A stretch of DNA of 24,825 nt from a virus (IMGVR_UViG_3300031673_000452:1-24825); one strand, 5' to 3'; positions 10,774-23,306 are shown, counted from the stretch's first letter. Translations and numbers: made by a program. Notes: generated from the sequence alone by a model not told the origin.

Positions 10774-12324
10774 TTAATCCCAAAGTGATGATTTTGTTAA
10801 CCAACTCCAATCATCTATATCATCTTCTACATCTGATAAGATACCCCATGCATCATTTTCATCCATCTGACCATCTTTAAATTTCCAATCTTCGTTTAGT
10901 ATATTCATCTGGAAGAGATAAGTAGCCCAAAATAAAGCACAAACTAAATCATCTGGTTTGTCTTTACCGAAAAATTTATTCTTCTCTTCTATAAATGATC
11001 CTAATTCCTCAATGGTTTCCTTATCAACTAATCTTACACTACCATCTTCTATTAACTTCTTCATTAGAAGTACTGCTTTTGGTTTAGTATCTTTCTGTGA
11101 GCGCACACCAAGGCTTTTCTCCTTGCTACCTGAATTGACTAGGTTCTCATTTTCGAATGTCCACCATAACTGACTAATAACAGCGGCTCCTTCTCCATTG
11201 TTTTCACACATAATATAGGCATTATTGTAGTAATATGATAGCTTATTAATGATTTGTGAGAATTCATAGACATCTGTTAAGTTATTTTCGAATACTCCTA
11301 CTTGAATTAGTTCTACAGGATTTACCGATTCTACCTTTAGTATTTGGATACCAGAACTATTTTCCCCTGTACCTTTGGCTGGATCTACTCCCATAACATA
11401 CTTAGCTCCTTCTCTTGGTTTCTCCCATAATCTAAGTCTATCTTGTAGATCATAGTAAACGGGTTCGCTATACATACTCATTAAGGTTCTAAGGCACTCT
11501 GGATGAATGACTGTATTAGTAGATCCTAAAAATTTACAAGCGTATTCCTGATTGAACGCTTGTGTACCCATATTAGCAATTTCTTGTTTAGCCCATTCCT
11601 TATCACGCCCTGGAACCTTATCCCATATGACTTTATAAGGTTTGAAGAAATTGTCTCCTACCTGTGCTTGTGTCCATAGTCTATGAAAGATATTGAACAT
11701 ACCATTAGGAGTAGAAATAATTATCAGCTTTGATTTTTTTGAGGAAGATATTGTAGGATAATTTGCCGCCCAAAACTCTTCTGCTTGATTACTAGGCACA
11801 AAAGCAAATTCGTCACAAATAACCATATTCATAGGCCACCCTCTAAAGGCATCAGAGGTAGTAGCGGAGATGATCATGTTTGTTCCATTATCGAAATGTA
11901 CAGAAGTCTTTTGATATTCCGTCACTCCAGGCTTCAACCATACTGGAAGACCTTCATACATTCTTTTGATTGTATCTAGGATTCTTTTAGCGGATGTTTC
12001 TTTATTGGATACTATTCCTACATTTTTATTTGCATGGAAGATAGCATACCAAAGAGCAAAAATAGCTACTATTGTAGTCTTGCCAGATTGTCTAGCCCAT
12101 AGCCCTACAAAAAATCTATTCTTATTAAGTAAGTCAATTGTTTCTAATTGATATTTGTATGGAGCAAAAAGTATTTCTCCATGATCTAATGTAACAATTT
12201 TAATGTAATGAGTAGCAAAATGAAGAATATCTTCTTTGCATTTCATTAACTCCGATATATGTTCTGGAGTATATTCAAATTCCTCATTAGGACGTTTTAC
12301 ATAATCATCATATCGTATAGCCAT
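10774..12324 (-). CDS. terL: Terminase large subunit, T4 gp17-like
   Basis: The ATPase-nuclease motor that packages DNA into the prohead. With the ATG at 12324 it has 516 residues. Motifs appear in order: adenine/Q-type YKYQLETIDLL, Walker A ARQSGKTT (about 77-84), Walker B MVICDEFAFV (DE at 171-172) and coupling motif STPNG (about 204-208). A RNase H-like nuclease domain follows, with GVDPAKGTG (Asp about 314), CENNGEG (Glu about 374) and a late DDLVCALFWA. T4 gp17 is longer (610) mainly outside these motifs. A GTG at 12336 gives four more residues, but that codon lies inside the upstream hairpin; the ATG sits right after a GGGG-T6 stretch. Its own late promoter is 31 nt upstream. Confidence 0.96.
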   Translation of the reverse strand: MAIRYDDYVKRPNEEFEYTPEHISELMKCKEDILHFATHYIKIVTLDHGEILFAPYKYQLETIDLLNKNRFFVGLWARQSGKTTIVAIFALWYAIFHANKNVGIVSNKETSAKRILDTIKRMYEGLPVWLKPGVTEYQKTSVHFDNGTNMIISATTSDAFRGWPMNMVICDEFAFVPSNQAEEFWAANYPTISSSKKSKLIIISTPNGMFNIFHRLWTQAQVGDNFFKPYKVIWDKVPGRDKEWAKQEIANMGTQAFNQEYACKFLGSTNTVIHPECLRTLMSMYSEPVYYDLQDRLRLWEKPREGAKYVMGVDPAKGTGENSSGIQILKVESVNPVELIQVGVFENNLTDVYEFSQIINKLSYYYNNAYIMCENNGEGAAVISQLWWTFENENLVNSGSKEKSLGVRSQKDTKPKAVLLMKKLIEDGSVRLVDKETIEELGSFIEEKNKFFGKDKPDDLVCALFWATYLFQMNILNEDWKFKDGQMDENDAWGILSDVEDDIDDWSWLTKSSLWD

Positions 12325-12330
12325 AAAAAA

Positions 12331-12375
12331 CCCCACATAATTATTTACTATACTTATTTATATAATTATGTGAGG
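12331..12375 (-). terminator. Hairpin terminator of the accessory operon, overlapping the terL leader
   Basis: Two 14-nt arms (12331-12344 and 12362-12375) pair along their whole length in minus-strand RNA, with one G-U pair and a 17-nt loop. Six U residues follow, then directly the terL ATG. It starts about 20 nt after the stop of the 73-residue gene, so it looks like an intrinsic terminator for upstream transcripts. The AT-rich stem is only moderately stable. The 3' arm also contains the GGGG that could act as the terL ribosome site. Confidence 0.7.
12355..12362 (-). promoter_or_regulatory. T4-type late promoter of terL, inside the hairpin loop
   Basis: An exact TATAAATA on the minus strand, of which seven of eight bases lie in the loop of the terminator-like hairpin. 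Transcription from it would start near 12349, inside the loop, giving a leader of about 25 nt without the 5' arm of the hairpin. Confidence 0.75.
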
Positions 12376-12394: not shown

Positions 12395-12616
12395 TTATTC
12401 TAATACAAGCCTAGCAACAAATTCCGTATTGTAGATATTCCAAAGATCTTTTTCAATACCAAAAGAATTACATGTTGTAGTGAATGAGTCTTTATCGTCT
12501 TTATCTATAGATATAACTAGTCTAAGATTAAATCCATAACTTATTCCCTCTATGATCGGAGGATCTATAGGTCTTACCCAATCTCCTATTTTTGGTTCGT
12601 AATCCATATTTTGCAT
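12395..12616 (-). CDS. Small unknown protein (73 aa), last gene of the accessory operon
   Basis: No family recognised. It starts MQNMDYEPKIGDWVRPIDPP and continues with GISYGFNLRLVISIDKDDKDSF. The 'KIGDWVRPI' start recalls small SH3-like beta-barrel proteins that begin with a 'GDWV' strand. The ATG at 12616 is chosen because a GGAGGAG site lies just upstream and the previous gene ends at 12618; an upstream in-frame ATG at 12655 would overlap that gene. The terminator-like hairpin follows the stop. Confidence 0.65.
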   Translation of the reverse strand: MQNMDYEPKIGDWVRPIDPPIIEGISYGFNLRLVISIDKDDKDSFTTTCNSFGIEKDLWNIYNTEFVARLVLE

Positions 12617-12617
12617 T

Positions 12618-12911
12618 TTATTTCTCCTCCTTCCTTTCAAACACATATGTTTCATGAAAATCTCTCTTTTGATATATCTTCACAGGCACATCCTTGATTA
12701 TATTATCTATATGTCTAGTGAATATCTTAATTCTCCCATCTTTAAATGTTAGAATAGTCCTATTTGAATGAGATAGAAAGCCACTATCCATCAAATATTC
12801 AACATTGACAATAGTTCCTTCCATTACTAAATTTCTTTTATCCTTATTGACTACACCACTAGTGATAAAAATTATTAGTAAGAATCCCCATCCTATAGCA
12901 CCAAATTTCAT
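12618..12911 (-). CDS. Membrane-anchored small protein (97 aa)
   Basis: The N-terminus has a single hydrophobic segment (GAIGWGFLLIIFITSGVV, residues 4-21) with no cysteine lipobox, so it is probably an uncleaved anchor or signal peptide. The remaining 75 residues are a basic, strand-rich domain (GTIVNVEYLMDSGFLS, then TILTFKDGRIKIFTR), plausibly a small beta barrel facing outward. It is preceded by GGAGGAG and lies just downstream of the tRNA-Trp gene. Phage accessory membrane proteins of this sort can act in superinfection exclusion, but nothing here proves it. Confidence 0.68.
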   Translation of the reverse strand: MKFGAIGWGFLLIIFITSGVVNKDKRNLVMEGTIVNVEYLMDSGFLSHSNRTILTFKDGRIKIFTRHIDNIIKDVPVKIYQKRDFHETYVFERKEEK

Positions 12912-12933
12912 TCTGCTCCTCCTTTTTTTTATT

Positions 12934-13007
12934 TGGCAGAGGTAGAAGGAATTGAACCCTCACAGCTTAGATTTGGAGTCTAGCTGGCTCAACCTACGCT
13001 TACCTCT
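12934..13007 (-). tRNA. tRNA-Trp (CCA anticodon)
   Basis: 74 nt with the 3' CCA encoded. A perfect 7-bp acceptor stem (AGAGGTA/TACCTCT), discriminator G as usual for Trp, T loop TTCAATT, and anticodon loop CTCCAAA giving CCA. The D arm is short and hard to draw as a normal 4-bp stem. The anticodon stem has a bulged A but is extended by 4 further pairs (CAGC/GCTG). The base is a good tRNA with a slightly unusual core. Confidence 0.88.
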
Positions 13008-13008
13008 A

Positions 13009-13086
13009 TGGAAGTGGTAGTGGGAATCGAACCCACGTTCCAAGCGTGAAAGGCTTGTATCCTTTGCCAATTTGGACTATACCACC
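13009..13086 (-). tRNA. tRNA-Glu (TTC anticodon)
   Basis: 78 nt with CCA encoded. Acceptor GGTGGTA/TACCACT (one G-U), D stem GTCC/GGAT with an 11-nt loop containing GG, anticodon arm CAAGC-CTTTCAC-GCTTG, T arm GTGGG-TTCGATT-CCCAC. All four arms are canonical. The discriminator is U rather than the usual G of bacterial tRNA-Glu. It lies directly between tRNA-Trp and a Cys-rich gene in the same transcript. Confidence 0.92.
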
Positions 13087-13296
13087 TTATTCTCCAAAGC
13101 TTTTTGAACTTACTTGTAGCCAAGTTTCATCTTCTCTAGCTATAATACAACGTCCTCTATTCTTACATTTTCTTCCTTGCTGATAAGCTTTACATTTACA
13201 CGTTGATATGCCTGTATCTACGAATCCTTTTTTCTGATCGTATCCCATATCATTATATACTTTTAATTCTCTACATGTTATAAATGTAATTCTCAT
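13087..13296 (-). CDS. Cys-rich mini-protein (69 aa)
   Basis: No family recognised. It contains TCKCKAYQQGRKCKNRGRC, with cysteines spaced CxC-(8)-C-(5)-C, which could bind zinc. An earlier ITCRE adds a fifth cysteine. It ends with a short WLQVSSKSF segment. The start overlaps the preceding stop by ATGA. It is the third of three consecutive Cys-rich mini-genes between tRNA-Thr and tRNA-Glu. Confidence 0.68.
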   Translation of the reverse strand: MRITFITCRELKVYNDMGYDQKKGFVDTGISTCKCKAYQQGRKCKNRGRCIIAREDETWLQVSSKSFGE

Positions 13297-13481
13297 AATA
13301 TTTCAAAATCCTCAGTTTTTAAGAACTCTTCATATTCTTCACAAAGACAATTACAAGCAAAAAGTTTACAAGTATAAGTATTTTCTTTATGTGGTTTAGC
13401 ATGAAAACATATTTTTTTAGGATTATCAAAATATCTACAATGATCTATTTTAGGACATAACATTAATCTAGTCAATTTCAA
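13293..13481 (-). CDS. Cys/His-rich mini-protein, CPKxDxC family copy 2 (62 aa)
   Basis: The sequence LCPKIDHC, then KICFHAKPH, then a C-rich LFACNCLCEEYEEF makes a probable zinc-binding protein. The layout LCPK-x-D-x-C ... C-x-H-x-x-PH matches that of the gene just upstream, so the two look like diverged tandem copies. The start used is a TTG at 13481 with an AGAGGA site very close to it. An ATG at 13463, four bases after the upstream stop, is a good alternative giving 56 residues and coupled translation. Function unknown. Confidence 0.6.
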   Translation of the reverse strand: MKLTRLMLCPKIDHCRYFDNPKKICFHAKPHKENTYTCKLFACNCLCEEYEEFLKTEDFEIL

Positions 13482-13692
13482 AGTCCTCTGGAAAGAATGT
13501 AATATCAGCGGCTAGTTCTTCCACACAAGAAGGACATTGAGATCCTTCATTGACTCTATGGTTCTGGTCACAAAATTTCTCAAACCCATGAGGTATTTTA
13601 TGGTGACAGTCCATAACACATTTATCCGATTTAGGACATAAATATAGTTTTACTTTTTTTACTTCTTCTTTTGATGGTGTATATTCCATCAT
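13468..13692 (-). CDS. Cys/His-rich mini-protein, CPKxDxC family copy 1 (74 aa)
   Basis: The N-terminal part is EVKKVKLYLCPKSDKC, followed by DCHHKIPHGFEKFC and a CPSCVEEL pair, so up to six cysteines and several histidines could hold zinc. It shares LCPKxDxC and the HxxPH element with the gene downstream. It overlaps that gene and starts next to tRNA-Thr. No known family. Such pairs are typical phage accessory proteins of unknown role. Confidence 0.68.
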   Translation of the reverse strand: MMEYTPSKEEVKKVKLYLCPKSDKCVMDCHHKIPHGFEKFCDQNHRVNEGSQCPSCVEELAADITFFPEDFEID

Positions 13693-13710
13693 TTTTTACC
13701 TTTAAAAAAA

Positions 13711-13786
13711 TGGAGCCGCTGGAGGGATTCAAACCCCCAACAATCTGATTACAGGTCAGCTACTCTATCGTTAGAGTTACAGCGGC
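13711..13786 (-). tRNA. tRNA-Thr (TGT anticodon) with unusual core bases
   Basis: 76 nt with CCA encoded. Perfect acceptor GCCGCTG/CAGCGGC, D stem ACTC/GAGT, anticodon stem CTGA/TCAG and T stem GGGGG/CCCTC. The loop CCTGTAA reads UGU (Thr). The same arm occurs in E. coli tRNA-Thr(UGU) except that nearly universal U33 is C here. The T loop is TTTGAAT, so C56 is U, and the D loop TAACGATA lacks the G18-G19 pair. The usual elbow contact G19-C56 is therefore missing. Confidence 0.78.
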
Positions 13787-14437
13787 TTATTCTATGTCTA
13801 GTTGTCTATTTATCAAATCTTTATAATCATCATCTTCATCTATCATATCTTCATAGTTACGAATCCGCATCATTGTTGATTGTCCAGTAACAGGATCAAA
13901 AGAAAACACATCACTAGTCATTGAAATGAGATATCTCCAATCTTTTGCTTCTGCTTTAAATTTTTCAAATGGCATAGGCTCTGCTGTATTCCATTGATCC
14001 TTATTATCTTCTTGGAATTTAATTAGATACATCTTATAGTACTTATCTATATCTTCATTAGTTGGAGTTTTTCCACTCCGCATAAGTACAGTTTCTTCTG
14101 CGCTCTTCATTAAAGATTTTTTCATTCTATCAATAACTTGATCTATCAGTTTTACTTCTCTTTTATGTTTTACTATAATATAAATAATAACAAAAGGAAT
14201 AAGAAGAAGTAAACCTATCGGTATCCAATACCAAGGATTTTGTAAATTTCTTTGTGTTATTTCCCATGTTCCTACTGGATCTTGATACCATTGCCAGAAA
14301 TTATAACTCCATAAACAAGCTAACATACTCCAAAATACTTTGTTCATATGTTTTTTCCATATTAAATTGACTATATTCCCGACTCCAAATATAATAAAAG
14401 CAAGAAATCCTTCTAAATAGCTTTGTAATTTCTTCAT
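13787..14437 (-). CDS. Multi-pass membrane protein (216 aa)
   Basis: Three hydrophobic segments are visible: about residues 9-27 (FLAFIIFGVGNIVNLIW), 33-50 (Trp/Phe-rich) and 68-89 (YWIPIGLLLLIPFVIIYIIV). A soluble, acidic C-terminal domain of about 125 residues follows. That domain is helical with DRMKKSLMKSAEE and a terminal run of Asp/Glu. No family recognised. Its stop abuts the tRNA-Thr gene and its start overlaps the methyltransferase-like gene by ATGA. It is probably an inner-membrane protein of infection; function unknown. Confidence 0.72.
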   Translation of the reverse strand: MKKLQSYLEGFLAFIIFGVGNIVNLIWKKHMNKVFWSMLACLWSYNFWQWYQDPVGTWEITQRNLQNPWYWIPIGLLLLIPFVIIYIIVKHKREVKLIDQVIDRMKKSLMKSAEETVLMRSGKTPTNEDIDKYYKMYLIKFQEDNKDQWNTAEPMPFEKFKAEAKDWRYLISMTSDVFSFDPVTGQSTMMRIRNYEDMIDEDDDYKDLINRQLDIE

Positions 14438-15090
14438 TCAGACCCCCTAGAAGCGATTATAAGAGCATTTTTAGGTGAAAGCACGTTCTCATCCACGATT
14501 AACCTCTTCTGTCCTTCTACAAGGTTTAAGAGGTACATACACCACGTTAAATAGTTACCTATCTTCTCTTTTATGACTTGAGGGAGAGAATACTTAAATT
14601 TGTCTCCAGTACAGCAAGGCATAAGAATTAAGTGATCTGCTTTTGACTTATTGTAGATCTCAATAATTCTTGTTGCTAACCCTACGCATGGATGTACTCC
14701 GATAATTATAAAATCAGTCATAGGGTAAATAAGTCTTTGCTGATGAGTCATATACTCCCATCTTTCTTTGTAGATATTGCTCTTGACATACATGAAGCGT
14801 CTTATTTTAGACCATTGCCTATCCCGAACCCTTTTATCTATAGCGTATGAATGAATATTAGGATAGAGGAAAGAAGCAATGGTACTAGTCAAAGCATTAC
14901 CAGCGCAAAAATCGAATATAAAAAAGCTCTGATCTGGTTTCTTAAATACAATTCTTCGGATCTGATTAATTACTGCCATTGATTCAGTAATTTCTTTCTT
15001 CCTACCTGATATCGGATTCAGAATGTCAAGGATATCTTGATAGCAAGTCAAACCAAAGAATTCATTTATGTATTTATTTGAAGTATCCAT
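14434..15090 (-). CDS. SAM-dependent methyltransferase-like protein (Methyltransf_32 type)
   Basis: A 218-residue protein. Residues 57-66 read FIFDFCAGNA, a Rossmann-type SAM-binding loop of the DFCAG/DFCCG kind. Asp85 in SYAIDKRV would bind the ribose. Residues 130-139 read IGVHPCVGLA and 155-160 LILMPCC. The pairing of 'G-H-x-C-x-x-L' with 'M-P-C-C' is what I recall from the METTL25/Methyltransf_32 group, where the cysteines are conserved. The substrate is unknown (members are suspected to act on RNA or protein). Operon partner of the PilX-like and J-domain genes. Confidence 0.7.
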   Translation of the reverse strand: MDTSNKYINEFFGLTCYQDILDILNPISGRKKEITESMAVINQIRRIVFKKPDQSFFIFDFCAGNALTSTIASFLYPNIHSYAIDKRVRDRQWSKIRRFMYVKSNIYKERWEYMTHQQRLIYPMTDFIIIGVHPCVGLATRIIEIYNKSKADHLILMPCCTGDKFKYSLPQVIKEKIGNYLTWCMYLLNLVEGQKRLIVDENVLSPKNALIIASRGSE

Positions 15091-15101
15091 TAGTTTTCCC
15101 T

Positions 15102-16220
15102 TTAAATATTAAAATGAGCTATCATATCACTCCAGCTAGTCATTGAGTATCTTGAATGATCCTTCTGTAGATCTGCCAGAACATCACAGTCATATTGAAT
15201 ATCTACAGAACCATTGATAGCAACGGCTTCTCCCATTGCAACTACGGAGCCATAAATGATTTTTGATCCACCACCAGAAAGTACAATATCTCCACCTACG
15301 ATAATAAGACCATGCCAATCAAGATTACCAGCACAATCAAAGTCTCCATCTACTACTAGAATCCCATAACCAGTTAGATTAGTTATTTTGGCATTGCCAG
15401 TTACAAAGATAACTCCAGTATCATCCTCACTAGTGATAATATCGGTAGCTTCTACTTTACCAGATACAGGAGCCATTACCTGAGTAGCACTTTTTAAAAG
15501 GTTATCCCTCATAAGTGGATAAGGATACATTCCACCACTTTCAGAAATTACTGGATCATCCCCCATATCACCACTATAGTCAATGGTTCCACCAGCAACA
15601 TCATACATGATGTCTGGAACATTATCACAACTAGAATCATATTTCGCTTCTCCTATAATGCTACCAGATACACCATTACCGTTTACATTTGTATTGACAC
15701 GTAAAGCGGCATCAGGCATTGCAAAGATCCAATTGTATTTGAATGTAGCTTTAATATAATGTTTTCCACCACGTAAATGAGTACCTTCACTATAGGAAAT
15801 TTCAAAAGGCATACCAGTAGTAAAGTTTTTCTCATTCATATAATCTCCGTTTTCATCCCCCCACAATACAACCTTCTCTATTCCATCGGCAGGATCTATT
15901 TTTGTTATATGTTTTATTTTAACGGAGAAGTCATTCTCATCCATAAATCCTGGAGTTGTAATATAGGTACTTTTTTCATATTCTCCAAGAAAAGAAGTAT
16001 TTTTATAATCTACTTCTGTCAAGTTACCTTTTAACCAAAGGGGAACTAAAGCCGTACCTGATTCAGCCGCATAGAAACTCTTATTCATGATCTCTCCATT
16101 AACTGCCATATTCAAATTAAAAATGGAAAGTTTAATACTGGCAATTCCCAAAATAGTCATGGTAACTAGGATTAACATTGTAATGAAAATAATTGTAATT
16201 CCTTTTTCATTTTTTAACAT
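15102..16220 (-). CDS. PilX-like type IV pilin / pseudopilin-type protein
   Basis: With the ATG at 16220 (AGGAG upstream) the product has 372 residues. It starts MLKNEKG then ITIIFITMLILVTMTILGIA, a type III (prepilin) signal: short basic leader, Gly at -1, hydrophobic helix. Then NKSFYAAESG follows, the PilX N-domain signature. Glu5 of major pilins is absent, as in PilX-type minor pilins. The C-terminal half has beta-helix-like repeats (GYGILVVDGDFDCAGN, HGLIIVGGDIVLSGG, GSVVAMGEAVAINGSV), as in PilX-like proteins of environmental Gram-negatives. It would need the host peptidase and pilus machinery. An earlier in-frame ATG at 16289 would overlap the J-domain gene heavily. A pilin-like protein in a lytic-phage operon is unexpected. 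Confidence 0.78.
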   Translation of the reverse strand: MLKNEKGITIIFITMLILVTMTILGIASIKLSIFNLNMAVNGEIMNKSFYAAESGTALVPLWLKGNLTEVDYKNTSFLGEYEKSTYITTPGFMDENDFSVKIKHITKIDPADGIEKVVLWGDENGDYMNEKNFTTGMPFEISYSEGTHLRGGKHYIKATFKYNWIFAMPDAALRVNTNVNGNGVSGSIIGEAKYDSSCDNVPDIMYDVAGGTIDYSGDMGDDPVISESGGMYPYPLMRDNLLKSATQVMAPVSGKVEATDIITSEDDTGVIFVTGNAKITNLTGYGILVVDGDFDCAGNLDWHGLIIVGGDIVLSGGGSKIIYGSVVAMGEAVAINGSVDIQYDCDVLADLQKDHSRYSMTSWSDMIAHFNI

Positions 16221-16587
16221 AGTTATTGACTCCTCTTCTTTTCCATTCATGGTTTCTTTCAATATCCCAAATGTATCCATATCTTCCACCTTCTATATTA
16301 ATTCTAATTTCTCTTATTCCATAAAGAGGTACTTCACTAGTGAATATTTTTTCTTCTTTTAATTTTTCTTCTTTTAATTTTCCAAGCTCTGCTAAAATAT
16401 CTTGTTCTTTTTTAATAGCCTTATATGCTTCTTGGACAAATTGAAAAGCTCTTTCACTTCCCCCATGATCTGGATGATATTTTTGACAAAGAATTCTCCA
16501 TCTCCTTTTTAATTCTTTCGGAGGAAATACATTTAAAGGAGTTTTAATTCCAAAAGCTTTTTTATATTTGATTAAATTTAAATCCAT
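16207..16587 (-). CDS. J-domain (DnaJ-like) co-chaperone
   Basis: A 126-residue protein. Residues about 5-60 form a J domain: helix II ELKRRWRILCQKY, the HPD signature at 38-40 (YHPDHGG), then helix III ERAFQFVQEAYKAI. HPD is the part that triggers Hsp70 (DnaK) ATPase. No G/F region, zinc domain or client-binding C-domain is present. A Lys/Glu linker leads to a 45-residue tail with RIN-x-EGGRYGYIWDIER. It overlaps both neighbours. It could recruit host DnaK to a phage target, perhaps for folding or export of the neighbouring pilin-like product (inference). Confidence 0.85.
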   Translation of the reverse strand: MDLNLIKYKKAFGIKTPLNVFPPKELKRRWRILCQKYHPDHGGSERAFQFVQEAYKAIKKEQDILAELGKLKEEKLKEEKIFTSEVPLYGIREIRINIEGGRYGYIWDIERNHEWKRRGVNNYVKK

Positions 16588-16844
16588 AATATGAACATCT
16601 CTTTTCGTCTTGCTTTTTTACCTCTGGTTAGAATTGTAAATCCTTCTGGTATAAAATTTTCAAGAGGAGATATATTCTTTCTGGCTTGAGTAAGAGAAGG
16701 AAATACTCCAGCGGCAGTTAAGATATGGGCTAAAGTCCAATTCTTTTCCATAACTATAAACTCTTCTCCATCTAAAGGCCCAAAGAACATTTCTTTGTCC
16801 TCTTCTGTAACATTTGGAGATATGAAATTTAAGCCGCTAGACAT
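16578..16844 (-). CDS. Small protein, possibly S4-like RNA-binding (88 aa)
   Basis: No firm family. The segment TLAHILTAAGVFPSLTQARKN followed by a strand and ILTRGKKARRK resembles the helix-turn of S4-type RNA-binding domains (as at the C-terminus of tyrosyl-tRNA synthetase: two helices with SxxxAR and a closing VGK-like strand). The likeness is weak and recalled only. It overlaps the J-domain gene by 10 nt. Ribosome site GGAG is within the end of the upstream mini-gene. Confidence 0.6.
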   Translation of the reverse strand: MSSGLNFISPNVTEEDKEMFFGPLDGEEFIVMEKNWTLAHILTAAGVFPSLTQARKNISPLENFIPEGFTILTRGKKARRKEMFILWI

Positions 16845-16849
16845 TCTTT

Positions 16850-16987
16850 TTACTCCATATGGGTTTTTATAAATGATAAAGGAACATGCTGATTAAGATC
16901 ATATAAAAGCATAGTCTGAATAACTTTAGCTTTTTCATCTGGAGTACCAGATAAATTTTTAGCTAATTGTTTAATTCGCTTTTCCAT
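16850..16987 (-). CDS. 45-residue unknown mini-protein
   Basis: Starts MEKRIKQLAKNLSGTPDEKAK and ends FIKTHME; helical and mildly basic. The start is directly after the stop of the DUF6573-like gene, whose last codons supply a GAGGAA ribosome site. The end is just before the next gene, whose GGAG site lies in its last codons. No family recognised. The tight tiling argues for a real gene. Confidence 0.6.
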   Translation of the reverse strand: MEKRIKQLAKNLSGTPDEKAKVIQTMLLYDLNQHVPLSFIKTHME

Positions 16988-16988
16988 T

Positions 16989-17351
16989 TTAGTATTCCTC
17001 TGGAGTTATGATATGAATTGCTGACCCACTAGTTGAATCCAAGCAAGCCCAAAGTTTAAAATTTTTCCTGCCAAGCTTGCAAAAAAATTCTACCAGGGAA
17101 GAACCTTTCTCCGCATTACGGATTGCATTTCTGGCAACATTCAAAACATCCCAAAGTCTACCATTATAATCTTGAGTAGAATTTTCGGGAGGAGTACAAG
17201 CGTTATGGACGGATCTAGAAATTCGATATTTCCAAGACATATCACAACCGACTTGAAAAATTTCATTTGCCATTTCGGTAACGTCTACCAAAATACCATC
17301 CTTAACCGCTTGATTTGCCGTATAAGAAAAAATTACATTTAAATCATCCAT
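16989..17351 (-). CDS. DUF6573-like protein
   Basis: A 120-residue protein matching my recollection of DUF6573, a family of unknown function in phages and plasmids. Features are FSYTANQAVKDGILVDVTEMANEIF near the N-terminus (the family's SYTRAQAIxDGxLVDV), a GRLWDVLNVARNAI core helix, and a C-terminal strand ending with IHIITPEEY (family ends with TIMLPEED). An AGGAGA site precedes the ATG. It is the first gene after the 149-nt RNA. Confidence 0.75.
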   Translation of the reverse strand: MDDLNVIFSYTANQAVKDGILVDVTEMANEIFQVGCDMSWKYRISRSVHNACTPPENSTQDYNGRLWDVLNVARNAIRNAEKGSSLVEFFCKLGRKNFKLWACLDSTSGSAIHIITPEEY

Positions 17352-17371
17352 ATTTTTTTATCTCCTATTAC

Positions 17372-17400
17372 AGCTTATCAGAATTTATTTTGAATGTCAA
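17372..17400 (-). promoter_or_regulatory. Weak sigma70-like promoter upstream of the DUF6573-like gene
   Basis: TTGACA (perfect -35), 17-bp spacer, then TAAGCT with an extended TG. The -10 match is poor and the predicted start would fall within the ribosome site, so this is tentative. It could instead be only readthrough from the promoter at 17801. Confidence 0.3.
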
Positions 17401-17415
17401 TAAAATTTTTTGTGT

Positions 17416-17564
17416 GGGAGTATGAGGAATCGAACCTCAATACATTGTTACTGCAAACATGCCTTTGTTTTACCAATGTTTCCCCAAGTTGGCATCTTAT
17501 TTGAAATACCTTTGCAAAGCATGAAACGCCACGTTCTATATTTCAAATAAGCCTTGGTACTCCC
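17416..17564 (-). ncRNA. 149-nt tRNA-like cloverleaf RNA with enlarged arms
   Basis: The ends are those of a tRNA: a perfect 7-bp acceptor (GGGAGTA/TACTCCC) and a canonical T arm TGAGG-TTCGATT-CCTCA joined directly to it. Between them are two further nested helices instead of normal arms. CCAAG/CTTGG is continued by a perfect 13-bp stem (17496-17508 with 17539-17551) with a 30-nt loop. ACATTG/CAATGT (17442-17447 with 17474-17479) has a 26-nt loop. The loop of the first contains TTGCAAA and that of the second TTTGCAG, both resembling a Cys (GCA) anticodon. No CCA is encoded. It may be an interrupted tRNA-Cys, a decayed one, or a tRNA-like structured RNA with another role. Confidence 0.6.
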
Positions 17565-17571
17565 TTAGATG

Positions 17572-17769
17572 TTAAGCCAACATTTCAGAATTTGCCGTTC
17601 CCCTTCTTACCCTTTCTGCCATACGGTAAAGATCCTTTAATTCAGTTTTCGATTTTTTCATCAATTCTTCGACTTTCCAGTTATCAGTTTTTACAGGATC
17701 ATCACCAGAAAGATGTTTTGCAAAAAGCGTATTCGTTATAAAGAGTGCCATGTCAATTTTTCTCATCAT
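17572..17769 (-). CDS. 65-residue unknown protein
   Basis: No family recognised. It starts MMRKIDMALFITNTLFAKHL and continues with DNWKVEELMKKSKTELKDLY, a helical, basic product. The ATG at 17769 is preferred over the one at 17802. An AGGAGA site lies just before it, and the promoter's -10 hexamer would overlap the earlier start. The stop is 7 nt before the cloverleaf RNA, so both are made in one transcript from the promoter at 17801-17829. Confidence 0.65.
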   Translation of the reverse strand: MMRKIDMALFITNTLFAKHLSGDDPVKTDNWKVEELMKKSKTELKDLYRMAERVRRGTANSEMLA

Positions 17770-17800
17770 TTTGTTTCTCCTTGTTTGAGTTTCTATATAC

Positions 17801-17829
17801 ATTCTATCTTATATAAGAAATTTTGTCAA
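17801..17829 (-). promoter_or_regulatory. Sigma70-like promoter of the accessory operon
   Basis: TTGACA (perfect -35), exactly 17 bp, then TAGAAT (5 of 6). A start near 17794 leads into the 65-residue gene, the cloverleaf RNA and on to the accessory genes and tRNAs. It is of host-polymerase type, so early or constitutive. Confidence 0.72.
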
Positions 17830-17911: not shown

Positions 17912-19420
17912 TTATGATGAACTTGAGGTTGAAATTAGATATGGATTTTCTGCCTTATATCTTTTTGAAACTTTGTTTTGAATAGTGTTTAGATGAACAT
18001 TCTCACCCCAAAGGTAGGCTATATGAGCAAGCGTCTTTTCTGTATACTCTTGATCAAGATCCATTCCGACATGTCTATGTTCAAGGTTCAATTCTCTTCG
18101 TCCATCCTGTACCATAATTTTAGGGATTCCAGAATGAGCAAAACTTTTTATTATTAGTTCTTTAACCTCTTCTTTCTTCTTATCGGTAACAACAATCTTT
18201 TCAGAGTAAGGATCTTTTTGTTTGACATACAGGTAAAGCTCAAGATCCCTTGTAAGCTCATCAGTTAAAAAGTTTTGCATGAAGAACCAATCATTGTGAG
18301 TCCTTAGAGTCTCAAACATTTTTTCTCTACCTAACATATCCCCTGTATCCCAATCTTTTCTTTTTTGCATATTTGGCTCTTCATCATAGGCTTCTCCAAA
18401 TCTACCCTTATCGTATCGGTTTACAAGATCATACCACATCTCACTACCTATCAAATAAGGATTCATAGCAAATGGATTTTTAGCTTTGACTAGTGCATTG
18501 GTATAATTATATTCAGCGTGTTCTTCACTAGTCAAAAGATTTTCATTAAAAAGTTTTCTCAAGATAAGCTCATGCCAATAAGTAGCAAATCCCTCATTCA
18601 TGTATTTCGTTTTTACATGGGGCCAAATGTATCTTCCCTGATATCGTAAGATCTCAAGAATATCTTTTTGCCAGTCTGATAAGACTCTGGAGTTATCTAT
18701 AACGAAACGTAGTAAATCTTCTGTAGGCTCAACTGGAATTTGATTTTTTAATTTCATCCAAAGATTATGATTAAATAAATCCCTTTCTACATCTGCTTCT
18801 TGAGCTAAATCATTATTATCTACAAATAGATCATCATACTGTGTAGTTTTTCTTTCATGAGCTTTCTGTTTCATTTTAGCAAAAATTCTATTTCTCTTTT
18901 CATCTTCTGTCTCTTCTGTTTCAAAAGGAGAAGAATGAAGATAAATAGCATGTCCAGCGTCCACCGTTTTTTCAAGTATCTCAATTCCATATTTCCGCTC
19001 ATAGTCATTGAATCTATCAGAAGCGGCAATAAACTTAGATACAATATCTTTGTCTAGTTCATCATGGTATTTGTTCATTGTAGAAAAAGAAACATGTCCT
19101 ACAACGTGAGCTACCACAAGAGCTTGAACAGCAAAGGTATTATTTTTCATTAAATAGGATCTGGCAGGATTAGTAGTAATGACTACTTCCATAGGAAGAC
19201 CACCTAAAGAATGTTCGTAGATAGTTTTAAGCCTTTCGTAATCTCTTCCAAATTTCCAGTTAGAGATTTGCCCTGGCATCCCATAAGCCATAATTTCAAG
19301 CATCTTATTTTCTGGTACAATATCAAATTCAATAGGAACAAACTCCAATCCCTCTTCTTCGGCAATTTGATATATTCTTTCTTCTAACTTGACTAGTCTT
19401 TGAAGTTCTAATTTATCCAT
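17912..19420 (-). CDS. spoVR: SpoVR/YcgB family protein
   Basis: A 502-residue member of the SpoVR family (B. subtilis SpoVR 468, E. coli YcgB 510). Family blocks are in order: YGMPGQISNWKFGRDYE (46-62), ITTNPARSYLMKNNT (81-95), AHVVGHVSF (104-112, with the His pair at 105 and 109) and MNEGFATYWHE (274-284), then NPYLIGSEMWYDLVNRYDKGRFG. The His and Glu-rich blocks suggest a metal site, but its reaction is unknown. In Bacillus the gene is needed for a proper spore cortex; in E. coli it belongs to a starvation regulon. The ATG lies inside the end of yhbH with an AGGGA site, so translation is coupled. Third gene of the module; the last residues (ISTSSSS) are phage-specific. Confidence 0.95.
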   Translation of the reverse strand: MDKLELQRLVKLEERIYQIAEEEGLEFVPIEFDIVPENKMLEIMAYGMPGQISNWKFGRDYERLKTIYEHSLGGLPMEVVITTNPARSYLMKNNTFAVQALVVAHVVGHVSFSTMNKYHDELDKDIVSKFIAASDRFNDYERKYGIEILEKTVDAGHAIYLHSSPFETEETEDEKRNRIFAKMKQKAHERKTTQYDDLFVDNNDLAQEADVERDLFNHNLWMKLKNQIPVEPTEDLLRFVIDNSRVLSDWQKDILEILRYQGRYIWPHVKTKYMNEGFATYWHELILRKLFNENLLTSEEHAEYNYTNALVKAKNPFAMNPYLIGSEMWYDLVNRYDKGRFGEAYDEEPNMQKRKDWDTGDMLGREKMFETLRTHNDWFFMQNFLTDELTRDLELYLYVKQKDPYSEKIVVTDKKKEEVKELIIKSFAHSGIPKIMVQDGRRELNLEHRHVGMDLDQEYTEKTLAHIAYLWGENVHLNTIQNKVSKRYKAENPYLISTSSSS

Positions 19421-20711
19421 TAGTTTTCCCTTCTATGTCTTGTATTCCTAACATATGTTTTAAAGCAGATCTGATATGCTTTTTTTGACGGATTACAGAC
19501 ATAAAGAAATGTTTATCATGATTTATCCAGAAATTTCCCTCATTGCCAAATTTTTTTTCTTCAAAATTCCATTTCTTTTTCATTGCTGGCATCAGATTTG
19601 AATAATCACCAGATGGTTTTACTTCTATGTAACTAAACATGTTTACTTTTTCAAGAAGGTCTTCTATTTTGGAAACAGTAGTATGTTCATCAAAATCCTC
19701 TCCATCGGAGCAGTATAGACTGTAGATGTTCCATTCATCAGTAGGATATTCGGCATCTATCATCTGAATAGCTTTTTCAATAGCGGTATAGCAGTAAGTA
19801 CCACCAGTAGTTCCCCTATTGAAAAATGTATCTTCATCTACTTCTACAGCTACATCAGAATGTTGTATAAATCTAATTTGAACATGCTCATATTGACTTC
19901 TTAAAAATTCAACCATCCAAAAGAGAAGACTTCTAACTAAATATTTCTTCTGGATATCCATAGATCCCGATACATCCATTTTAGCAATGACTACAGCATT
20001 AGAACAAATTTCAATATCCTCATCTACGGTTTTAAATCTTAAATCATCATCGTCTATCATGATATGATTTTCTTGAGCTTTGACATCTCCTATAAAAACC
20101 AATTTAATTGCTTCATGGATATCAAAGTTAGCTTGCTTCAATGCATTTTGAGCAGTTTCTAAATCACAATCTGTTTGAGCTACTATTTCTCCACTAAGAA
20201 TAGCGTTTCTTTTAATAGCTTCAAACATGGTACGCTTCTTATGTACTCTGGACAGCGGCCCGACTTTCGAAATGGAGTTAGTAGTCCAGCCCTTAGAGAT
20301 AATTGTGCTGTTTTTATCTTTCTCTTCTAAGTAAGGCAATCCAAGATCTTCAAACATGATTTTAAGAAGATAATCAATATCTACTTCTGTCTCTAGGTAG
20401 TCGGAACCCATTTGATCACCAGCACCACCTTTATTACTACCTGTAGGTCTTTCATCCAAAATGTCACCAGCTTTCTTATCACCTTGACCAACTCCAGCCA
20501 CACCTTTTTTACCATATCTAAATTGATAGTCTTTCAATCCTCTTACTGGAACCTTTATAGTTCTTTTTCCGTCTTCTCTAGTGATAATAGATTCTTCACC
20601 AATGACATTCTGGATGTTATCCCTAATAGCTTTGTCTACTTTCTTCTGGTGTCTAGCGGCATCTTTAGTGCCTTTGTTTATATTCCAATCGTCATGGTAT
20701 ACTATAGCCAT
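19413..20711 (-). CDS. yhbH: YhbH/YeaH (DUF444, UPF0229) VWA-domain protein with extra segment
   Basis: A 432-residue protein (B. subtilis YhbH about 390, E. coli YeaH 427). The N-terminal part has VPVRGLKDYQFRYGKKG and a Gly-rich linker typical of the family. LLKIMFEDLGLPYLEEKDK and RVHKKRTMFEAIKRNAI follow. The C-terminal half is a von Willebrand A fold with a full MIDAS: DVSGS (246-250), TTGGT (301-305) and SDGEDF (335-340). Between them, residues about 174-215 (VAQTDCDLETAQNALKQANF, then DIHEAIKLV) look like a UBA-type three-helix unit that I do not recall in the bacterial proteins. E. coli YeaH is a partner and substrate of the kinase YeaG (PrkA), encoded just upstream here as well. Confidence 0.94.
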   Translation of the reverse strand: MAIVYHDDWNINKGTKDAARHQKKVDKAIRDNIQNVIGEESIITREDGKRTIKVPVRGLKDYQFRYGKKGVAGVGQGDKKAGDILDERPTGSNKGGAGDQMGSDYLETEVDIDYLLKIMFEDLGLPYLEEKDKNSTIISKGWTTNSISKVGPLSRVHKKRTMFEAIKRNAILSGEIVAQTDCDLETAQNALKQANFDIHEAIKLVFIGDVKAQENHIMIDDDDLRFKTVDEDIEICSNAVVIAKMDVSGSMDIQKKYLVRSLLFWMVEFLRSQYEHVQIRFIQHSDVAVEVDEDTFFNRGTTGGTYCYTAIEKAIQMIDAEYPTDEWNIYSLYCSDGEDFDEHTTVSKIEDLLEKVNMFSYIEVKPSGDYSNLMPAMKKKWNFEEKKFGNEGNFWINHDKHFFMSVIRQKKHIRSALKHMLGIQDIEGKTNG

Positions 20712-20736
20712 TTTTTATCCTTTTTTTCTCTTTTTA

Positions 20737-22740
20737 TTAGTTCTCTCTTCTGAGGATCTCACCTACAAAGGCAAGAAGATGTTTAGCACAATTCGGACAA
20801 TAGCCTTTAGCCAATAAAGTCTGCATAGCTGTATCTCTACGCCTTTCAGCTTTCGGAGAAGTAACGGTAGTATCAGCGATAGAAAGAGTGACAACATTTT
20901 TAAGATCACTCATAAGCTTCTTTTCTATAGCAAGCTTTAAAGGACTATACGTTCTCCATGTAAATTCTTTCTTTTGAAGTAACGTATCTCCAAGATAGAC
21001 AAAAATACCTTTTCGGAAATCCTTCTTTGACTCTTTAGGAATCCCGATTTGCTCTTCGATTGCTCTCATTATATCTTCATCAGGTTCTTTAAATTCTCCA
21101 ACGCTATCAAGAACAGTTACATTTTTGCAGTATGCCGTAACATTGACCATGTATCTTCCAAATAATTCATCGGCTTGATCATCGTAGGCATGTACAAAGG
21201 CTTTACTTACTTCCCTCTTTGCGAATTCCCTGTATTCCGATAGGATAGAGTCAGAATCAGCGGTAAGCAATTGTTCAAAAGCTTTTCTGCTTTTTTCATC
21301 ATGTCCAATATGATGATCAAAAGTATTTCTAATGGAGCGGATCATATCCAATGCAGTAATACAACCGCAATATTTACTATCTCCAGTATCAACACTTTCT
21401 TTAGCCGCTAAGATAATATTCAGAGCGTTCATAATGAATCTTGGAGAAATACCATTCATACATTCATTATGAGCTTTACCCTCTTCACGTAATTTTCTTA
21501 TGTCAAAGTCTTTGCCTTTAGCAAATTCTTCTAGATATTCTCCATTGTATAACTTCATTTTCTTGATCAGGTTTATTTGATCAGAATGATAATACCTTGT
21601 CAGTACCGCAAATTGAGCGGCAACTTCTAGAGCTTGAGGAGAAATATGAATATTGGTAAATTCAGAGTCGGCAATAATTTTCTTGTAAATTTCTACCTCA
21701 TCTTTTACCCTGTCATTCCAAGGAATATTGATAATATACATCCTGTCATGAAGTGCTTCATTCTCTTTATTGTTCCTGAATTTATCGAATTCAGTATGAT
21801 TGGTATGAGACAAGATTAATGTATCAATATACATTTGAGGAAATCTTGGAGCTTTGATAGTTTGCTCTTGAGCGGCAGTAATTAAGACATAGTGAAATTT
21901 GGTATCTGCTTTTAAAATTTCAATATACTCAATCAATCCACCATTGGCAACCTGTAGCTCACCATCAAAGGTGTAACCTCTAGGATCTGATTCACCATGA
22001 ATTGCTACTTTACCCATATTGACACTTCCAATCAATTCCGAAACATCTTGACTCTTAGGATCGGAAGGAGTAAAAGTACCAATACCAATTCTTCGCTGTT
22101 CGGAAATTTTGACTTGCTCTACAGGTAGGTCATGCCACCTAACAGTACCATCAGTATTTGTGAAATGATCATCCACATTTAATTGACAGACTGGACATAG
22201 CGTACCTTCAATTTTTACTCCTAACTTCTCTTCCCAAAAAGCCCTATTGTCTTCTGGAATTGCATGTAAAGGTTCTTCATGCAATGGACAATTAATAAGA
22301 GCATACTTAGGAGTATCATCCCTTTCCAGACCTCTCTTTATAAGGGAAGAGATAGTTGACTTTGCAGAAGCGACAGGCCCGACAAGCATAAGGATTCGTT
22401 TACCTGTCTCCGTTCTCCTAGCAGAAGCTTTAAGAAATCTCATGATATCATGAATTGCTTCCGCTGTTCGATTACCAAAGATCTCCCCACTAAAGAAATT
22501 GTACCATACAAGATCTTCATATCCCTTTGTTAAGATCTCTTTTTCTACAGGAGAAGTACCTTTCTTCATGATCATGTTGTAGATCCTAGCAGGAGATAGG
22601 TTTGCAATCTCTGGAGCGGCTTCTACTTTTTGCATGTAGTCAATCAAAGACCCCGACCAGTTAGTTTTTGGAGCGTCCTTTTGTTGATCTAAAGCGATTG
22701 TTCTAAAATCCATGTTTTCCCCACCATTTAAGATTTCCAT
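20737..22740 (-). CDS. prkA: PrkA/YeaG AAA+ serine kinase/protease
   Basis: A 667-residue PrkA (B. subtilis PrkA 631, YeaG 644). The AAA domain has Walker A GPVASAKST (121-129), then CPLHEEPLHAIPE, a CPVC pair (182-185) and IGIGTFTPSDPKSQDVSELIG. The ANGGLIEYIEILKA block stands for Walker B in this family. NKENEALHDRMYIINIPWNDRVKDE follows. The C-terminal kinase-like domain has FRKGIFVYLGD and AIEKKLMSDLKNV, ending CPNCAKHLLAFVGEILRRE. All family landmarks are kept, so it is probably active. PrkA is described as a Ser/Thr kinase (E. coli, for YeaH) and as an ATP-dependent protease in Bacillus sporulation. A second in-frame ATG nine codons in, with GGGGAA before it, could be the start. Confidence 0.96.
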   Translation of the reverse strand: MEILNGGENMDFRTIALDQQKDAPKTNWSGSLIDYMQKVEAAPEIANLSPARIYNMIMKKGTSPVEKEILTKGYEDLVWYNFFSGEIFGNRTAEAIHDIMRFLKASARRTETGKRILMLVGPVASAKSTISSLIKRGLERDDTPKYALINCPLHEEPLHAIPEDNRAFWEEKLGVKIEGTLCPVCQLNVDDHFTNTDGTVRWHDLPVEQVKISEQRRIGIGTFTPSDPKSQDVSELIGSVNMGKVAIHGESDPRGYTFDGELQVANGGLIEYIEILKADTKFHYVLITAAQEQTIKAPRFPQMYIDTLILSHTNHTEFDKFRNNKENEALHDRMYIINIPWNDRVKDEVEIYKKIIADSEFTNIHISPQALEVAAQFAVLTRYYHSDQINLIKKMKLYNGEYLEEFAKGKDFDIRKLREEGKAHNECMNGISPRFIMNALNIILAAKESVDTGDSKYCGCITALDMIRSIRNTFDHHIGHDEKSRKAFEQLLTADSDSILSEYREFAKREVSKAFVHAYDDQADELFGRYMVNVTAYCKNVTVLDSVGEFKEPDEDIMRAIEEQIGIPKESKKDFRKGIFVYLGDTLLQKKEFTWRTYSPLKLAIEKKLMSDLKNVVTLSIADTTVTSPKAERRRDTAMQTLLAKGYCPNCAKHLLAFVGEILRREN

Positions 22741-22755
22741 AAGTAATTTCCTTTC

Positions 22756-23250
22756 CTAAGTTAGTTTTTTTACTTCTTCTATTTTTCCTTCACCTATTTT
22801 TTTTGGTTCATTTGACATTATCTTTAAAAGGTCTTCTCTTGAAGTTACTATAATATTTTGATTGGTAGTTGTTCCTCTGATTCCTACTCTTTCTTTAATG
22901 ACTACTTCTCTTTCTTTAAGATTCTTTAATTCTTTTCTTACTTCTAAATATCCAACGTAATTTTCTTTGCCTATGATCTCCTTGCTAGCGGCAGTTATAC
23001 CGTTTATAATATTACCAGCAACTTCAACCATTCTTGCTGTGAAATTTCCACCATCAATTTCATCTTGAATTTTATCTAAAATTTGATTGGCTTTTTTAAT
23101 GTTACCTTTTAATATATCAACTGGATCATTATAATCAATTTCAATTTCATCTCTTTCGGTTAATCTTTCTTCTGGATCTTTCGGTAAATCATTATAATTT
23201 AAACCAAAAACCTCATCTAAGGTTGATAAATCTAATTCTTTTTCTTTCAT
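22756..23250 (-). CDS. terS: Terminase small subunit, T4 gp16-like
   Basis: With the ATG at 23250 (GGAGG 8 nt upstream) the product has 164 residues, the same as T4 gp16. The layout matches: acidic N-terminus LDLSTLDEVFGLNY, then YNDPVDILKGNIKKANQILD, a long paired-helix centre with FTARMVEVAGNIINGITAASKEII. The C-terminal part TTTNQNIIVTSREDLLKIM compares with the NIQNATVF-x-GSPTEL end of gp16. gp16 is the ring that recognises DNA and stimulates the gp17 ATPase. Unusually it lies 10 kb from terL and is the first gene of an operon with prkA-yhbH-spoVR. An upstream ATG pair would overlap the ribosome site and is unlikely. Confidence 0.8.
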   Translation of the reverse strand: MKEKELDLSTLDEVFGLNYNDLPKDPEERLTERDEIEIDYNDPVDILKGNIKKANQILDKIQDEIDGGNFTARMVEVAGNIINGITAASKEIIGKENYVGYLEVRKELKNLKEREVVIKERVGIRGTTTNQNIIVTSREDLLKIMSNEPKKIGEGKIEEVKKLT

Positions 23251-23277
23251 ATTATAAACCTCCATCATTTATATAGA

Positions 23278-23306
23278 TATTTATCATACTTAAATAAAAA
23301 TGTCAA
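23278..23306 (-). promoter_or_regulatory. Sigma70-like promoter of terS-prkA-yhbH-spoVR
   Basis: TTGACA (perfect) with 17-bp spacing to TAAATA on the minus strand. The -10 is weak (3 of 6) but the spacing and position, about 21 nt before the terS ribosome site, are right. No late octamer is present, so this operon is expected early or throughout infection. Confidence 0.6.

Follow-up and report, generated by a model that had tools for sequence, protein, structure and literature searches.

The window, which is the entire 24,825-bp IMG/VR virus record analyzed here, has a GC content of 33% and carries on its minus strand, in this order, terS, prkA, yhbH, spoVR, a cargo region, terL, the gene for a neck protein, and tail genes as far as the sheath. 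The gene for the small terminase subunit, terS (22756..23268), matches phrog_445 with an E-value of 1.4e-7 and is the first gene of a putative operon; its likely true start is at 23250, where an ATG is preceded by GGAGG in the sequence. Three complete ORFs follow, all on the minus strand. The first, prkA (20737..22740), encodes a YeaG-like AAA+ ATPase of 667 aa that matches PF08298 (E = 4.8e-99) and PF06798 (E = 1.1e-59) with 332 and 203 bits, respectively, against a cut-off of 25, and that matches the solved homologue 9xip with an E-value of 4e-113. The second, yhbH/yeaH (19413..20711), encodes a DUF444 protein of 432 aa (PF04285, E = 9.4e-87, 292 bits against a cut-off of 27). The third, spoVR/ycgB (17912..19420), encodes a protein of 502 aa that matches PF04293 with 312 bits (E = 7.4e-93) and the SpoVR_C profile PF24755 with 43 bits (E = 4e-11). 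The gaps between terS and prkA and between prkA and yhbH are approximately 15 and 25 nt, respectively, and yhbH and spoVR overlap by 8 nt. An earlier note had described this trio as complete, motif-intact genes that follow terS in a phage operon and keep the order known from bacteria; the ORFs, the Pfam matches, and the phrog_445 match agree with that description, coordinates included, and the profile search that it proposed placed PrkA, DUF444, and SpoVR all far above their cut-offs.

At its other end, the conserved terS-trio-terL block is closed by terL (10774..12336, minus strand), which encodes a large terminase of the gp17 type (PF03237/PF17289; phrog_2). The interval between spoVR and terL is usually 80–300 bp in relatives and about 5.4–5.6 kb in the window, where it is occupied by lineage-specific cargo (12395..17802, minus strand) comprising small ORFs, DnaJ-like, PilX-like, and methyltransferase-like genes, and tRNAs. 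One cargo gene, at 15102-16289 on the minus strand, lies between the trio and terL and has a product that carries the minor-pilin-like PilX N-terminal domain (PF14341, E = 2e-8); among relatives, only the closest ones have it. Such a pilin-like protein made by a phage might influence the pili of its host. A DnaJ-domain protein (PF00226) is encoded in the cargo at 16207-16587 on the minus strand, and several relatives have one. At 17410-17572 on the same strand lies a tRNA-like structured RNA with an acceptor stem (GGGAGUA/UACUCCC), a T-arm, and a long extra hairpin, for which the fold z-score is −3.25. No Rfam match was obtained for this RNA, and ARAGORN, with introns allowed, returns a doubtful tRNA-Ala.

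The phage is T4-like by its gp17-type TerL, contractile-tail sheath, and neck protein and, in relatives, by gp23 and late promoters. The capsid gene gp23 is present in 5/6 long relatives. Relatives of the window PrkA, at 50–83% identity, are found in dozens of viral contigs with the typical order terS-prkA-yhbH-spoVR-terL. The clade was sampled by terL alone rather than by presence of the trio. Where a sampled contig reached 3.5 kb or more upstream of terL, both yhbH and spoVR were present (48/48), and where it reached 8 kb or more, all three genes were present in 31/32; one alignment used for the TerL sampling came from trio-bearing contigs, and these counts could therefore miss distant trio-less sisters. 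The sole exception among the 32, L167, is a contig that starts inside yhbH. Among TerL relatives at approximately 35% identity, no trio was detected in the flanks examined, many of which are short. In three further contigs (L152, L153, and L154), PrkA and YhbH follow TerS and SpoVR was not detected; minus-strand genes come next, one of them with a PcfJ-like domain. The terL of contig L003 (14441-16993) has its Walker A motif interrupted by an intein-like insert (RQSGK^...HNTT). Among phage records, the best TerL reaches 38% identity, and the clade is therefore without an isolate in the collection searched. The trio is thus core to a large, uncultivated T4-like clade, and this is new: no report of the clade's module was found in the open-access literature, subscription papers lying outside that search.

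The signals for expression are consistent with transcription of the trio from terS. A putative promoter region (23267..23306, minus strand) precedes terS and contains TTGACA (23306-23301) and an imperfect T4-type late motif, TATAAATG, at approximately 23273. The late promoter motif TATAAATA itself is located just before terL (12355..12362, minus strand). Within the window alone its frequency is not significant (9 occurrences against 6 expected). The 150 bp before each gene were scanned in non-redundant relatives, with dinucleotide shuffles as the expectation. The motif TATAAATA was found before terS in 31/55 relatives (2.9 in shuffles) and before terL in 43/76 (2.8 in shuffles), and before prkA, yhbH, and spoVR in 1/61, 0/65, and 0/67, respectively. 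A sigma-70-like site precedes terS in 44/56 relatives. In 5/8, sigma-70 region 2 is recognized in a small protein (E-values of 3e-7 to 5e-5) that could be a late sigma factor. A terminator-like hairpin follows spoVR in 20/68 relatives. Since the late motifs precede terS and terL and not the trio genes, terS and the trio probably constitute one operon with early-type and late-type promoters that ends before terL, an indirect argument for co-transcription. A single transcript is not universal, because a terminator-like hairpin also follows prkA in 17/64 relatives.

The phylogeny suggested in the earlier note, against bacterial and other phage copies, was carried out, and the T4-like clade is a single group in each of the PrkA, SpoVR, and YhbH trees (SH-aLRT of 100, 100, and 99, respectively). 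Its neighbors are chromosomal operons in metagenome-assembled genomes (MAGs) of Desulfobacterota and Spirochaetota. The trees indicate that the trio was captured once, by the ancestor of the clade, from a bacterial operon; the bacterial sample behind these trees was pattern-limited. A PrkA-like match was found in 20/148 Desulfobacterota genomes, and near 54% only in two genomes that were already known. The Thermus phages form a group of their own and the huge phages are placed elsewhere, both on long branches of unsure position, and capture by phages in general therefore probably occurred more than once. All three genes are under purifying selection: dN/dS is 0.07–0.18 at informative distances, about 0.1 for each gene and similar to that of TerL, with a value of 0.02 for one pair in which dS is saturated. 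The pairwise distances of the trio proteins correlate with one another (r of 0.76–0.83) and less closely with those of TerL (r of 0.42–0.58), with 0/2000 permutations in each case, in favor of co-inheritance of the trio.

In PrkA, the Walker A motif (GPVASAKS) is intact, and Lys127, which corresponds to K116 of YeaG, is invariant in all sequences compared. In E. coli, YeaG needs R232 and K426 for complementation in addition to the Walker A lysine (PMC4664914). These two residues align with Gly243 and Asn438 of the window protein, respectively; the former position is not conserved in the phage copies, and the latter is occupied by Asn or Asp both in relatives from phages and in several bacteria. 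With purified PrkA from B. anthracis, protease activity could not be detected and kinase activity was negligible, and the latter is disputed even for bacterial PrkA (PMC13001217). The earlier suggestion that PrkA acts as both kinase and protease is therefore not followed here; from the aligned residues a kinase role is doubtful, and PrkA is treated as an AAA+ motor because R232 and K426 are absent and because of the data for the B. anthracis protein. In YhbH, the MIDAS is complete (D246-x-S248-x-S250, T305, and D336) and invariant in 77 sequences, and the predicted structure has a vWA fold with a Z of 16.6 to a vWA domain.

The motifs of SpoVR are H105-V-V-G-H109 and N-E276-G-F-A-T-Y-W-H283, in which H105, H109, E276, and H283 are invariant in 82 sequences. 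The zinc metallopeptidases of the M1 and M61 types carry HExxH and NEGFA motifs, and these are echoed by the HVxGH and NEGFA of SpoVR. The AlphaFold2 model (pLDDT of 91) was compared using VIA-align, and the top 14 matches are mostly of M1 and M61 type, together with ACE2 and a carboxypeptidase; the best of these is a moderate one (Z of 10.9, 193 residues, rmsd of 3.7). With Foldseek, no match to the model had an E-value below 0.001, and the test against the gluzincin fold gave E > 0.1; the gluzincins emerged from VIA-align only. The position of the catalytic Glu of HExxH is occupied by Val or Ala in the 21 sequences compared for it, and Val is nearly invariant there in 82 sequences. Because this Glu is replaced, SpoVR may, judging from motifs and model, bind a metal without being a peptidase; support for the metal site and the fold is indirect. 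Intein-like inserts interrupt spoVR in L167 (1462-4083, an ORF of 874 aa) and L161 (5285-7975, an ORF of 897 aa) at the identical point, NEGxA^T-YWH. Since these two phages are divergent, the shared insertion point marks NEGxATYWH as a conserved functional site.

The reading preferred here, and put forward tentatively, is that a captured bacterial operon became a core, co-transcribed block with terS and that its AAA+/vWA machine acts through SpoVR on the envelope or stress state of the host. PrkA would be the ATP-driven AAA+ ring, and YhbH, as a vWA protein whose MIDAS binds metal, would couple this motor to a client. The effector would be SpoVR, a metal-binding protein in which the active site is gluzincin-like but the usual catalytic Glu is missing. 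The three proteins, presumed to work as a single machine inside the infected cell, would act on the envelope or stress state during infection and thereby keep that cell intact and productive until lysis. Mutants of yeaH have been tied to antimicrobial-peptide resistance, and ycgB likewise as unpublished data (PMC2375023), and YeaG and YeaH act jointly in nitrogen starvation (PMC4664914). It is from the parts of the machine together with this literature on peptide resistance and starvation that an action on the envelope or stress state is inferred; the link to the envelope would follow by analogy with one screen and unpublished data from enterobacteria.

The phage module could instead replace or override that of the host, so that a starving host is kept metabolically productive or entry into or exit from dormancy is steered, which is close to the idea of the earlier note. 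YeaG and YeaH govern metabolic heterogeneity and the lag before regrowth in nitrogen-starved E. coli (PMC4664914), PrkA is required by B. anthracis for sporulation and for growth under osmotic stress (PMC13001217), and spoVR is the most abundant sporulation-related auxiliary metabolic gene in viromes of oxygen-minimum zones (PMC8940887). The YeaG residues required for the starvation phenotype, however, are those replaced in the phage copies, and since the whole clade retains the trio, it seems to be needed in each infection and not in dormant cells only. The tie to sporulation drawn in the earlier note finds no pointer to a spore-forming host, the nearest bacterial operons being in MAGs of Desulfobacterota and Spirochaetota. 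Control of dormancy is accordingly regarded as rather unlikely.

A role in the virion is less probable still. The trio would then help to assemble heads or to package DNA, and PrkA and YhbH would be a remodelling ATPase for the terminase or prohead. The trio is locked between terS and terL in the clade; the coordinates put gp23 no more than a few hundred bp from terS in two long relatives and no more than about 4 kb from it in two others; and in the unrelated Thermus phages the trio of Lalka27b is between portal/minor head genes and TerL and that of phiYS40 is near TerL. Against this, other T4-like phages package DNA without the trio, the flanks examined for terL relatives of about 35% identity do not contain it, and the bacterial homologues work without any virion. 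In the Ralstonia phage RsoM2USA, as described in excerpts of PMC8504454, the trio genes are at 22–27 kb and terL is at 163 kb.

The repeated capture that is apparent among unrelated phages, and the host-interaction-like cargo of the operon region in the window lineage, would suit a counter-defence module, one that shuts down an envelope-stress response, abortive infection, or another of the host's defences. Genes for counter-defence usually vary among relatives, whereas the trio block is universal in the clade and strongly constrained, and little weight is given to this possibility. Contamination or a passively carried host segment can be dismissed, since the trio genes, though bacterial in origin, are under strong purifying selection, occupy as a block the interval from terS to terL in dozens of viral contigs, and are monophyletic, separate from the bacterial copies. 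A bacterial segment at the flank of a prophage, also considered, was rejected on the same gene order in dozens of independent viral contigs.

PrkA, YhbH, and SpoVR are widespread in bacteria, and their biochemical function is unsettled. Their constant retention in the clade, under selection as strong as that on the terminase, suggests that the three act together in a way that is useful to a replicating virus and independent of spores. A more far-reaching form of the envelope or stress reading, itself doubtful, is that SpoVR is a metalloprotein of non-classical gluzincin fold driven by PrkA and YhbH and that the whole T4-like clade depends on this machine in every infection. If true, that dependence would reveal what a bacterial stress system, unexplained for decades, really does at the molecular level. 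The active site proposed for SpoVR (HVxxH and NEGxAxxxH, split by an intein in two phages) is directly testable, and approximately 100 diverged natural sequences are available for finding functional residues. With the module fixed in a phage genome, a virus offers a way to study this poorly understood bacterial machine.

Phages that carry the trio are already known, and the earlier statement that no described phage has all three genes does not hold. In the phage collection, relatives of PrkA occur in 16 records, of which 11 are Thermus phages, 4 are uncultured huge phages, and 1 is an Enterobacter phage. As in the window, all three families are present in one phage in Thermus phages phiYS40, phiLo, MN1, and Lalka, either annotated or, in the first three at least, detectable; in phiYS40 the genes are YS40_056, 057 ("SpoVR"), and 059 ("serine kinase"). 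The trio is close to TerL in phiYS40 and Lalka27b, as in the clade. Unlike the window, phiYS40, phiLo, MN1, and Lalka27b have the order yhbH-spoVR-prkA, and no terS-trio-terL block is present in the Thermus loci examined. In the trees of PrkA and of SpoVR, the Thermus phages (phiYS40, TMA, phiLo, MN1, and Lalka) stand apart as a clade of their own, at approximately 26–36% identity. Enterobacter phage LAU1 has yeaG/yeaH at the end of its record, with no SpoVR in the stretch examined. In RsoM2USA, a jumbo myovirus compared by description from excerpts of PMC8504454 in which ORF29 is not named, SpoVR (ORF28) is near PrkA (ORF30), far from terL, and the best database matches are to PrkA of Alcanivorax and SpoVR of Vibrio. 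SpoVR has also been noted as a viral gene in viromes of oxygen-minimum zones (PMC8940887).

Among bacterial systems, E. coli yeaGH and ycgB belong to the same families as the phage genes and share with them the Walker A motif, the MIDAS, and the site residues of SpoVR; in E. coli, ycgB is located away from yeaGH, and R232 and K426 of YeaG are not conserved in the phage. RavA-ViaA, NorQ-NorD, and CbbQ-CbbO are AAA+/vWA-MIDAS pairs in which a motor works with a MIDAS adaptor, and their likeness to PrkA-YhbH is drawn as one of principle. The operons of Desulfobacterota and Spirochaetota (for example L012, L014, L016, and L022) are the nearest bacterial relatives found. The two that were checked, L014 and L016, are chromosomal, with metabolic and envelope genes alongside and no terminase genes seen. 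The gene order of these operons is that of the window, and the identities to the window proteins are 51–55%, 39–45%, and 38–46% for PrkA, YhbH, and SpoVR, respectively.
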